Assembly (NCBI RefSeq): GCF_003054175.1
Contig: NZ_QBKN01000021.1
Span: forward strand, 1 to 64,000
Length of the DNA: 64,000 bases
Source of the DNA: Allosediminivita pacifica
Lineage (GTDB): Bacteria; Pseudomonadota; Alphaproteobacteria; Rhodobacterales; Rhodobacteraceae
Reading direction: 5' to 3'
Under the pieces are notes generated by a model that made no database searches, was not told where the DNA came from, and saw only the letters and a list, made by a program, of their open reading frames with translations. Positions within the stretch are counted from its first letter, which is position 1, and each line of letters starts with the position of its first letter. A program made the position numbers and the translations under genes. This document shows positions 36,997 to 39,373 of the stretch, one piece after another.

Positions 36997-36998
36997 AC

Positions 36999-37034
36999 CT
37001 TCCAGCGCTGGAAGCGTGTTCCCTCCCTGAACAC
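36999..37034. promoter_or_regulatory. Two dyads upstream of the glutaredoxin-MauE gene, possible operator
   Basis: CTTCCAGCGCTGGAAG (16 bases, perfect palindrome, 36999-37014) is followed at once by GTGTTC-N7-GAACAC (37016-37034). They lie 20 to 55 bases before ATG 37056. The palindromic symmetry fits a dimeric regulator; the regulator is unknown. Confidence 0.4.
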
Positions 37035-37055: not shown

Positions 37056-37814
37056 ATGCCGCTCGACGACACCAAGAAGACCGCCACTCTCTACAGGATG
37101 GTCATGCCCGACCATCTCTGCCCCTTCGGTCTCAAGACCAAGGCCCTGCTCGAACGCGAAGGCTACGAGGTCGACGACCACTGGCTCGAGACCAAGGACG
37201 AAAAGGACGGCTTCATGGAGAAGCACGGGGTGAAGACCACCCCGCAGGTCTGGATCGCCGACGACCGCATCGGCGGCTACGAAGAGGTGCGCGCCCATTT
37301 CGGCAAGCGGGTGAAGGGCGGCGACGAAACCACCTACCAGCCGGTGCTCGCGATCTTTGCCGTGGGCGCCCTGATGGCGCTGGCGGTCAGCTGGGCAGCC
37401 TTCGGAACGGTTTTCACGATCCGCACGATCGAATGGTTCCTCGCGATCTCGATGACGCTTCTCGGGCTGCAAAAACTGCAGGACGTCGAGAGCTTCTCGA
37501 CCATGTTCCTCAACTACGACCTGCTTGCGCAGCGCTGGGTCCGATACGGCAAAATCTACCCCTTCGCCGAGACGCTGGCCGGCGTGCTGATGATCGCGGG
37601 CGCGCTTGTCTGGATCTCGGCGCCGATCGCGCTCTTCATCGGCACGGTGGGCGCAATCTCGGTCTTCAAGGCCGTCTACATCGACAAGCGAGAGCTGAAA
37701 TGCGCCTGCGTCGGCGGCGGCAGCAACGTGCCGCTCGGCTTCATCTCGCTGACCGAGAACCTGATGATGATCCTCATGGGCCTCTGGATGCCGGCAAAGG
37801 CCCTGCTGATGTAG
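37056..37814 (+). CDS. Glutaredoxin-MauE (DoxX-like) fusion membrane protein
   Basis: A 252-residue two-domain protein. Residues 10-85 form a glutaredoxin-like domain with one Cys in the motif position (PDHLCPFGLKTKALL) and a TTPQVWIADDRIGGYEEV cis-Pro region. From about 95 onward come four transmembrane helices of the MauE/DoxX-like type, with a conserved CACVGG motif in the last loop (ELKCACVGGGSNVPLG) before the final helix (LTENLMMILMGLW). MauE proteins take part in disulfide or thiol transfer across the membrane, for example in methylamine dehydrogenase maturation. GGAGG lies before ATG. It heads a plus-strand run with a cupredoxin and a DUF411 protein. Confidence 0.85.
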   Translation: MPLDDTKKTATLYRMVMPDHLCPFGLKTKALLEREGYEVDDHWLETKDEKDGFMEKHGVKTTPQVWIADDRIGGYEEVRAHFGKRVKGGDETTYQPVLAIFAVGALMALAVSWAAFGTVFTIRTIEWFLAISMTLLGLQKLQDVESFSTMFLNYDLLAQRWVRYGKIYPFAETLAGVLMIAGALVWISAPIALFIGTVGAISVFKAVYIDKRELKCACVGGGSNVPLGFISLTENLMMILMGLWMPAKALLM

Positions 37815-37895
37815 GCGGTTCGGCACCGAAACGTGACTTCGCCGCCCGTCGCAACACTTGCAGAGGGGCGCTCGGGCCGCATAGCGTCCGGCGCC

Positions 37896-38264
37896 ATGAG
37901 AGCTGCGCTTCTCCCGATCCTGCGCGCCATCTGCGTGGCGCTGCTGCTGCCCCTGTCTGCCGGGGCTCAGCCGTCCCATCACGGAGGCGCGCAGCATCCT
38001 TGCGTGGCCTCCGTCACCGCAGAGCTTGAGCCGATCACGGCCAACGCGGGCTCTCGCATGGACGCATCGCAACCATGTGACACCCGGCAGGATCCCGGGC
38101 ATGCCGGATGGCATTGCCCCGTCGCCGGTTGCGCCGCGATCCATACCTCGGCCCCGGAATCCTCTGCCCCGCAAGGATCGGTGGACGCCGTGTTCCCCGC
38201 GCCCTTCCCCGATGCGCTCCTGCCCCGGCGGGCCGAGGAACGGCATCGCCCTCCGGACGCGTGA
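37896..38264 (+). CDS. Small exported Cys/His-containing protein
   Basis: A 122-residue protein with a signal peptide (MRAALLPILRAICVALLLP, cut near SAGAQ). The mature part has Cys and His placed as possible metal ligands: PSHHGGAQHPC, QPCDTRQ and WHCPVAGCAAIH, and a Pro/Arg-rich end (RRAEERHRPPDA). Similar short, poorly conserved proteins sit upstream of copper-handling genes in other proteobacteria. No domain is recognised. It lies between the glutaredoxin-MauE gene and the cupredoxin gene. Its ribosome-binding site is weak, so the exact start is less certain. Confidence 0.5.
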   Translation: MRAALLPILRAICVALLLPLSAGAQPSHHGGAQHPCVASVTAELEPITANAGSRMDASQPCDTRQDPGHAGWHCPVAGCAAIHTSAPESSAPQGSVDAVFPAPFPDALLPRRAEERHRPPDA

Positions 38265-38347
38265 GGTCCGCGCAAGCTGCGCCGAACCTCACCCAGAATG
38301 CCGCGCGGGTCAGTGCCCCGCGCAAGGCAAACCCATCCGGAGACATC

Positions 38348-38827
38348 ATGAAACTCTTCACCCTATCCACGGCCCTGATCCTCGCCGCCGGCGCCGCCCT
38401 CGCGGCCGGCTCCGATGATCACAGCCATGCCTCCCCCCATGCCGAAATGCCGGCCGGCCAGCCGGGTGACCCGGCGCAGGTCGACCGGACGATCCACATC
38501 CGCATGATCGAAACCGATGGCGGCATGGCCTACGAGCCCTCCTCGCTCGACATCGAAACCGGCGAGACGGTTCGCCTCGACGTCGTGAACGACGGCGCCC
38601 TCGACCACGAGCTCGTCCTCGGTACGGAAGGCAGCAACCGCGCGCATATGGCCGAAATGGCGGACATGCCCGACATGGCCCATGACGACCCCAACGCGCT
38701 GCGGCTCGCCCCGGGCGAAACCGGCCAGATCGTCTGGACCTTCGACACCGAGGGCACATTCCAGTTCGCCTGCCTGATCCCGGGCCACATGGAGGCCGGC
38801 ATGCACGGCCCCGTTCACGTCCACTGA
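38348..38827 (+). CDS. Cupredoxin-domain copper protein
   Basis: A 159-residue periplasmic protein with a signal peptide (MKLFTLSTALILAAGAALAA), then a His-rich tether (SDDHSHASPHAEMP), then a plastocyanin-like cupredoxin fold. The type 1 copper ligands are visible: His in GALDHELVL, then Cys, His and Met in FACLIPGHMEAGMHG. A Met/His-rich insert (MAEMADMPDMAHDD) may bind extra Cu(I). It probably carries or stores copper in the periplasm. In a run with a DUF411 protein, as in many copper-resistance loci. Confidence 0.9.
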   Translation: MKLFTLSTALILAAGAALAAGSDDHSHASPHAEMPAGQPGDPAQVDRTIHIRMIETDGGMAYEPSSLDIETGETVRLDVVNDGALDHELVLGTEGSNRAHMAEMADMPDMAHDDPNALRLAPGETGQIVWTFDTEGTFQFACLIPGHMEAGMHGPVHVH

Positions 38828-38893
38828 ATTTTGCGGTGCCACCGCGCCGAGGGCCATTTGCCCCGGCGCGGCAGGCACGAGGAGACACACACG

Positions 38894-39373
38894 ATGAAAC
38901 AAGCCCACATGACCCGCCGCGCGATGCTCGCCGGCACCGCCGCCCTTGGCCTCACCGCATTCCTGCCCCTGCGCGGACGGGCCGCGGCGCCCGCCATCCA
39001 CGTCCTCAAGGATCCCAACTGCGGCTGCTGCTCGGCTTGGGTCGAAATCCTCGAACGGGACGGCTTCGACGTCACGGTCGAGCTCTCGCGCGGCGCCGCG
39101 CTCAGCCGCTACAAGATCGACAACGGAATCCCGGTGCAGATGGCCTCCTGCCACACGGCCCGGATCGACGGCTACATGATCGAAGGCCACGTGCCCGTCG
39201 CCGACATCCGCCGCCTGCTGAACGACCGCCCCGATGCCGTGGGTCTCGCCGTGCCCGGCATGCCCTACGGCTCGCCCGGGATGGGGCCGGAAACCCGGCG
39301 TGAGGCCTACGAGGTCCACCTCATCCTGCAAGACGGCAGCACCGAAGTCTTCACCAGCTACGACGCGGCCTGA
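38894..39373 (+). CDS. DUF411 domain protein (putative periplasmic metal-binding protein)
   Basis: A 159-residue exported protein: a twin-arginine-like leader (MTRRAMLAGTAALGLTAF), then a DUF411 domain with the CGCC motif in KDPNCGCCSAWVEILERDG, SCHTARIDGYMIEGHVP, and GLAVPGMPYGSPGM. DUF411 proteins are repeatedly found with cupredoxins and copper oxidases and are presumed to bind or move copper in the periplasm. It follows the cupredoxin gene by 66 bases. Two GC-rich hairpins follow downstream. Confidence 0.9.
   Translation: MKQAHMTRRAMLAGTAALGLTAFLPLRGRAAAPAIHVLKDPNCGCCSAWVEILERDGFDVTVELSRGAALSRYKIDNGIPVQMASCHTARIDGYMIEGHVPVADIRRLLNDRPDAVGLAVPGMPYGSPGMGPETRREAYEVHLILQDGSTEVFTSYDAA

Follow-up and report, generated by a model that had tools for sequence, protein, structure and literature searches.

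A copper locus of Allosediminivita pacifica that probably sets a leader-controlled CopI-like operon beside a glutaredoxin-MauE gene

The copper locus described here lies at positions 37056-39373 of a 64,000-nucleotide stretch of Allosediminivita pacifica DNA (hereafter the window: contig C21, NZ_QBKN01000021.1, of a 4.85-Mb draft genome) and consists of four genes, all on the + strand, as a first-pass annotation made from the letters of the DNA had reported. In order, they encode a membrane protein with a glutaredoxin domain fused to a MauE domain (Grx-MauE), a small exported protein, a cupredoxin, and a DUF411 protein. The same annotation took the locus to be one for copper, which is upheld by the families of the cupredoxin (CopI-like) and the DUF411 protein (CopG-like) and by the copper genes that surround relatives of Grx-MauE. 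It also suggested that the four genes may be one compact unit for copper delivery or protection, with Grx-MauE keeping Cys ligands reduced. Our data point instead to two copper modules placed side by side: Grx-MauE (37056-37814) and a three-gene operon (37896-39373) that resembles Rhodobacter cutF-cutO-cutG with a CopI-like protein replacing the oxidase. We consider this explanation as a whole, including a leader switch in the operon, to be probable.

The small protein (37896-38264, + strand; 122 residues with five Cys and seven His) is most likely a CutF-like regulatory leader and not a structural copper binder. It begins with a putative signal peptide, read from a sequence pattern found in all leaders (an N-terminal Arg and the hydrophobic stretch MRAALLPILRAICVALLLPLSAGA), and continues with a CX4C motif (C74 and C79), 38 residues, RPP, two further residues, and the stop codon. 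No Pfam or NCBIfam model, DUF2946 included, was reported as a match to it (none at E ≤ 1 in Pfam). We compared eight leaders from six genera, six of them by alignment and the two from Rhodovulum by pattern. The aligned leaders, about 32% identical overall (vs. 62-84% for the neighbouring proteins), conserve a hydrophobic stretch at the N-terminus, CX4C, and a terminal RAxxxxRPP and nothing else; exactly 38 residues separate the second Cys from RPP in all six, and two to four residues follow RPP. Both Rhodovulum leaders fit the pattern C....C.{37,39}RPP. CutF-like genes have been defined by a product of fewer than 150 residues, PP within the last 15 residues, and a next same-strand gene within 1000 nucleotides (PMC9973294), and the window's leader agrees with this definition (122 residues, an RPPDA end, and a gap of 83 nucleotides). 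The Cys motif is CXXXC in CutF itself, with variants accepted among the listed CutF-like proteins (PMC9973294). CX4C, present in all leaders, can be counted as such a variant; since it is not a strict CXXXC, the leader is not a CutF orthologue.

RNA shielding of the next gene's Shine-Dalgarno (SD) sequence, a further CutF-like trait, is also found. In the minimum free energy fold of 38240-38372, an anti-SD sequence within the leader's Pro-Pro-Asp codons (CUCCGGA, 38251-38257, + strand) pairs with the SD region of the cupredoxin gene (UCCGGAG, 38336-38342, + strand), enclosing two hairpins (z = -3.13, with 1 of 200 shuffles as stable), and the probability that the SD is paired with the leader's 3' end is 1.00 (0 of 300 shuffles). 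Perfect helices of 7-9 bp between the leader's 3' end and the cupredoxin SD occur at seven of the eight loci (shuffle p 0.001-0.016 each). They take four different sequences (CUCCGGA/UCCGGAG, GUCCUCC/GGAGGAC, CUCCUGAA/UUCAGGAG and relatives, and GUCCUGAAC/GUUCAGGAC), and thus both sides have changed together between lineages. The anti-SD coincides with the arrest-motif codons in the window and in Roseivivax and with the last codons and stop in others; in Pseudoroseicyclus, the partner of UCAGGAGA is UCUCCUGA, whose 3' end is the leader's stop codon. It is because a few features are conserved at fixed spacing while the rest of the protein drifts, and because the helix covaries, that we read the small protein as a leader.

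Ahead of the leader, a promoter-like TTGCAG-N17-CATAGCGT (37858-37887, + strand) may give the trio its own start. The motif was derived by comparing the leaders' upstream regions: TTGC-N19..21-TAG lies within about 40 nucleotides of the leader start in all eight leaders, compared with 13 of 8000 random 60-mers. A scan of the DNA with the sigma-70 consensus found no promoters.

As a query on its own, the small protein had no match among plasmids, and its matches across the family were weak and mostly due to chance. The exception was genome G018, where gene order exposed a homologue, the weak match standing ahead of a cupredoxin and a DUF411 gene. With the trio cupredoxins as queries against 84,980 named genomes, leader-cupredoxin-DUF411 sets were found in Roseivivax sp. 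GX 12232, Histidinibacterium aquaticum (where the DUF411 match is partial), Citreimonas salinaria (two copies), Pseudoroseicyclus tamaricis, and two Rhodovulum species; of these loci, the one in Roseivivax alone combines all four genes in the order seen in the window. Farther relatives of the cupredoxin within Rhodobacteraceae stand mostly behind an oxidase, and loci in Alcaligenaceae comprise an oxidase, a cupredoxin, a cytochrome c, and DUF411. In Citreimonas salinaria, one trio DUF411 gene (L190, about 1425-1344, minus strand) is cut after the twin-arginine signal, with a gene for an APC-type permease directly behind it. Elsewhere in the family, other genera have leader-like open reading frames with CX3C and PPPR-type ends (L211, L212, and L217) ahead of cupredoxin genes that have an oxidase gene behind them.

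The cupredoxin (38348-38827, + strand; 159 residues; Pfam Copper-bind 1.6e-10) has the features of CopI: a His-rich N-terminal stretch, a Met/His-rich internal segment (residues 97-116), and a His-Cys-His-Met copper site whose residues (H87, C142, H147, and M152) are invariant among the trio cupredoxins. Its internal segment (RAHMAEMADMPDMAHDD) is identical at 10 of 17 positions to a peptide of CopI from Rubrivivax gelatinosus (KAHAQEMRAMPDMQHAD), which has been studied as such (PMC13308877). It matches two NCBIfam CopI models (6.7e-31 and 1.5e-22), and since its scores (107.4 and 80.2 bits) fall below their cut-offs (280 and 200), we class it as CopI-like and not, by that rule, as CopI; it also differs from CopI in standing behind a CutF-like leader. 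The third gene of the trio (38894-39373, + strand) encodes a CopG/CutG-like protein of 159 residues with a twin-arginine-like N-terminus (TRRAML), a Pfam DUF411 match (1.1e-27; 95.9 bits against a cut-off of 27), and a CxCC motif (CGCC, residues 43-46). It is similar over its full length to the Pseudomonas aeruginosa DUF411 structure 6wis (E 9.8e-32), with CGCC conserved and no notable difference from CopG (PDB 6wis/6wje); 6wis has been identified as CopG, to which R. capsulatus CutG is homologous (PMC8456105). Between the cupredoxin and DUF411 genes lies a very stable hairpin (38825-38905; z -4.63), which could be an element for RNA stability or processing.

Grx-MauE (37056-37814, + strand; 252 residues) matches both Pfam MauE (2.2e-12; 47.8 bits, over the cut-off) and Pfam Glutaredoxin (5e-6; 27.1 bits vs. 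a cut-off of 22.9). The glutaredoxin site is the monothiol CPFG (Cys22) and not the dithiol CPYC, and in an alignment of 59 sequences it reads CPYG or CPFG with no second Cys; the MauE membrane domain carries a CxC (C216-A-C218, in the context ELKCACVGGxSNVPLG). These three Cys are conserved at 95% or more in that alignment and are invariant in all 24 sequences of a second. The MauE domain is shared with the MauE of methylamine utilisation and with MauE/DoxX proteins, whereas the fused monothiol glutaredoxin, the CxC, and the copper neighbours set Grx-MauE apart; no mau genes were found in the annotated Grx-MauE neighbourhoods. In one genome of the same family, a sibling protein carries a heavy-metal-binding HMA domain where Grx-MauE has its glutaredoxin, and its MauE domain bears KCACLG (36% identity over 109 residues). 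On a Bernardetia plasmid, HMA and MauE are separate, adjacent genes beside genes for DUF305, a copper-binding protein, and an oxidase.

Upstream of Grx-MauE is a dyad resembling a CueR/HmrR box, ACCTTCCAGCGCTGGAAGCGT (36997-37017, + strand), with a perfect palindrome, TTCCAGCGCTGGAA, at 37000-37013, which Roseivivax keeps with matched changes (ATCCAGCGCTGGAT). The dyad scores 11 of 14 against the CueR-type dyad consensus, and scores of at least 11 occur in 8 of 58 Grx-MauE upstream regions (the window and seven others), compared with 4 of 400 random 223-mers. Its half-sites stand one base closer together than in the consensus, and a CueR-type regulator is therefore assigned only tentatively.

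Grx-MauE was found in 54 of the 198 genera sampled in the family, in 49 of them near full-length. We fetched 58 Grx-MauE loci with up to 8 kb per side, along with 40 loci of the same genomes as controls, and counted genes for multicopper oxidases, copper ATPases, CopZ, CopC, CopD, DUF305, CsoR-like proteins, cupredoxins, and DUF411. Copper neighbours were present at 35 of the Grx-MauE loci and at none of the controls (Fisher p 3e-11), a contrast that partly reflects plasmids because the controls came from large contigs and may favour chromosomes. The commonest neighbours were DUF305 (25 of 58), oxidases (21), CueR-type MerR regulators (20), copper ATPases (14), and CopZ (11). At the level of genomes, DUF411 occurs in 28 of 49 with a near full-length Grx-MauE vs. 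40 of 149 without (odds ratio 3.6, p 2e-4). Plasmid records matching Grx-MauE number 299, of which 157 are conjugative. Arrangements include P-type ATPase (CopA-type)-cueR-DUF305-Grx-MauE on a Phaeobacter inhibens plasmid, DUF305-Grx-MauE-CopA oxidase-CopB in Alteromonas macleodii, MerR-Grx-MauE-copper-binding protein (CusF)-RND pump in Sphingomonas, and ATPase-cupredoxin-MerR-flavodoxin-Grx-MauE-RND in the cyanobacterium Gloeocapsa. Judging by these neighbourhoods, Grx-MauE is a recurrent membrane protein of copper islands.

Three minor observations concern the same gene. The DUF305 membrane protein gene stands directly upstream of Grx-MauE at the 25 loci that have it (e.g., L035 and L097, 7046-7984), which makes it a stronger partner than the cupredoxin or DUF411. 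Five contigs listed as viral in IMG/VR carry Grx-MauE (L222 and L226 with DUF305 and a cation diffusion facilitator gene; L223-L225 with a MerR gene) and look like pieces of plasmids or chromosomes rather than phage. In a genome with five matches, two Grx-MauE copies (G153:C18 and G153:C9; L058 and L093) are broken by in-frame stops or frameshifts, suggesting decay of extra copies.

The four genes might still act as one unit, with Grx-MauE passing reducing power to periplasmic Cys of the small protein and of the DUF411 protein in a relay of the DsbD/CcdA type. In Roseivivax sp. GX 12232, the four genes recur in unchanged order and at near-identical spacing (84, 32, 74, and 75% identity, respectively), and since the flanking genes and chromosomal setting differ from those of the window, the set is beyond chance; in Histidinibacterium aquaticum, the set is rearranged, with Grx-MauE convergent just behind the trio. 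MauE is named as a redox-associated family, and some Grx-MauE islands carry DsbD-like and DsbA genes (the Phaeobacter inhibens plasmid; DsbA at 10 of 58 loci). However, gene neighbourhoods compared across Rhodobacteraceae showed the co-occurrence expected of a single unit to be rare: the full set was found only here and in Roseivivax and, rearranged, in Histidinibacterium; a cupredoxin like the window's and DUF411 were each within 8 kb of Grx-MauE at only 2 of 58 loci; and Grx-MauE is absent from most trio loci. Because the modules are usually separate, and because each has its own conserved promoter-like element, we favour two modules and reject one conserved four-gene unit as the general case. 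The glutaredoxin, moreover, has a single Cys. It lacks a signal peptide and is expected on the cytoplasmic side, while CopI and CopG are exported proteins; this argues against the suggestion that it keeps the Cys ligands reduced. That an HMA domain can take its place points to metal rather than disulfide traffic, and the exchange would thus favour metal handling over thiol reduction. We consider the relay unlikely.

For the operon of the two-module explanation, the closest described system is cutF-cutO-cutG of Rhodobacter capsulatus (PMC8456105, PMC9973294), which likewise has a short exported Cys leader with a C-terminal PP, an SD of the second gene shielded by RNA, a third gene of the DUF411/CopG type, and a leader promoter just upstream. 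It differs in that its second gene encodes an oxidase and not a CopI-like cupredoxin, whereas CX4C at a fixed 38 residues from RPP, an anti-SD in the leader's arrest-motif or stop codons, and a gap of 83 (vs. about 40) nucleotides belong to the set described here. Function of R. capsulatus CutF requires the Cys motif, the Pro-rich C-terminus, the signal peptide, and the SD-shielding stem-loop (PMC9973294, PMC8456105).

By analogy, the leader would be translated and exported during its synthesis. When copper is absent, it would be finished and released, the RNA would refold so that 38251-38257 cover the SD at 38336-38342, and little CopI would be made. When copper is present, the CX4C of the emerging chain may bind metal outside the membrane, slowing the movement of the chain and stalling the ribosome on the C-terminal RPP codons. 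As the anti-SD is formed by these arrest codons themselves, the paused ribosome would mask it and free the cupredoxin start site, allowing CopI to be made and, through coupling or a polycistronic message, CopG as well; CopI would then bind and oxidise or buffer periplasmic copper.

The switch could also run in the opposite direction. In CruR/DUF2946 leaders (Bordetella pertussis bp2923), a Cys pair likewise lies at a fixed distance from a C-terminal R-x-P-P at the head of a copper operon, 45 residues from RAPP, and copper lowers bfrG expression through CruR (PMC9426467); the fixed 38-residue spacing would fit a leader in which copper relieves the arrest and lowers downstream expression. However, the motifs differ (CX4C, 38 residues, and RPP vs. 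CXXC, 45 residues, and RAPP, with no match to DUF2946, PF11162), CruR acts by Rho termination ahead of a copper-uptake gene while the target here is a copper-binding and detoxification protein, and the RNA sequesters the SD in the manner of cutF-cutO, where pausing switches expression on. Control in the CruR direction therefore seems improbable. A further reading, that of an ordinary copper-binding protein which is secreted and whose RNA pairing is incidental, is highly doubtful: the small protein's signal peptide, its several Cys and His, and the CopL-like or chaperone roles formerly proposed for CutF would suit it, but conservation at fixed spacing is confined to the signal peptide, CX4C, and RAxxxxRPP, the helix covaries, and secreted CutF is quickly degraded in R. 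capsulatus (PMC9973294).

Several observations weigh against the two-module explanation with its leader switch. The leader has CX4C where CutF has CXXXC, and it has no DUF2946 match. At the eighth locus, in Histidinibacterium (L228), there is no SD helix beyond 4 bp (shuffle p 0.82); in Roseivivax, a competing local hairpin reduces the pairing probability to 0.34; and the seven helices are not all independent, as two closely similar genera or species account for three of them. At 23 of the 58 Grx-MauE loci, no copper neighbour was detected, and these include the closest relatives, among them a Palleronia relative (77%) and the closest relative in the family (L034). No further copper gene surrounds the family's only HMA-MauE gene (L091), and an AlphaFold2 model of Grx-MauE built from six sequences is poor in its membrane part (mean predicted local distance difference test score 61.9).

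Under the two-module explanation, Grx-MauE would be controlled by its own CueR-like dyad, and Cu(I) or Cu(I)-glutathione on Cys22 of the glutaredoxin would pass, at the cytoplasmic face, to the CxC of MauE; such a transfer is much less certain than the leader switch. Hydropathy and charge weakly suggest that the glutaredoxin and the CxC loop are both cytoplasmic. We liken the protein to metal carriers of the MerT/MerP type, which presumably share its plan of a soluble thiol or metal domain beside a small membrane protein. A broader proposal is possible but, in our judgement, tentative: that Grx-MauE and HMA-MauE form an undescribed copper-island class in which an exchangeable cytoplasmic Cu(I)/thiol domain feeds a membrane CxC, and, jointly, that the leader's arrest codons are the anti-SD, making pausing and start-site release one event.

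CutF-like leaders, CopI, and CopG are already known. The annotation did not know the four-gene combination as a described system, and in the open-access literature that we searched we likewise found neither this exact combination nor a description of Grx-MauE or of a CutF-CopI-CopG arrangement, nor any text linking MauE or Grx-MauE to copper; the summary of CutF-like neighbours in PMC9973294 lists no cupredoxins. In the trio, a mode of copper sensing described for an oxidase gene (cutO), through a nascent protein under export, would reach a cupredoxin gene as well, and the identity of arrest-motif codons and anti-SD in the window and Roseivivax offers a simple physical reading of the switch. 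Grx-MauE, usually annotated just as "glutaredoxin", is a widespread gene family, found in roughly one in four of the genera sampled and on conjugative plasmids, and may be a recurrent part of copper-resistance islands.

The annotation had also remarked that a multicopper oxidase and a copper ATPase are missing, which holds within the 64-kb window but not for the genome, where both adjoin another DUF411 gene on contig C26. The arrangement there is cutFOG-like, with a leader (CX3C, end PPKLSL), the oxidase, and DUF411 behind a copper-type ATPase; between this leader and its own oxidase start there is only a 6-bp match (p 0.12). The C26 locus (G000:C26; L095, 7574-17009) is a canonical copper locus that, besides the CutF-like leader, multicopper oxidase, DUF411, and P-type ATPase (with a metal-binding N-terminus), includes a cation diffusion facilitator, a CcdA-like protein, a TlpA-like thioredoxin, and a MerR regulator.

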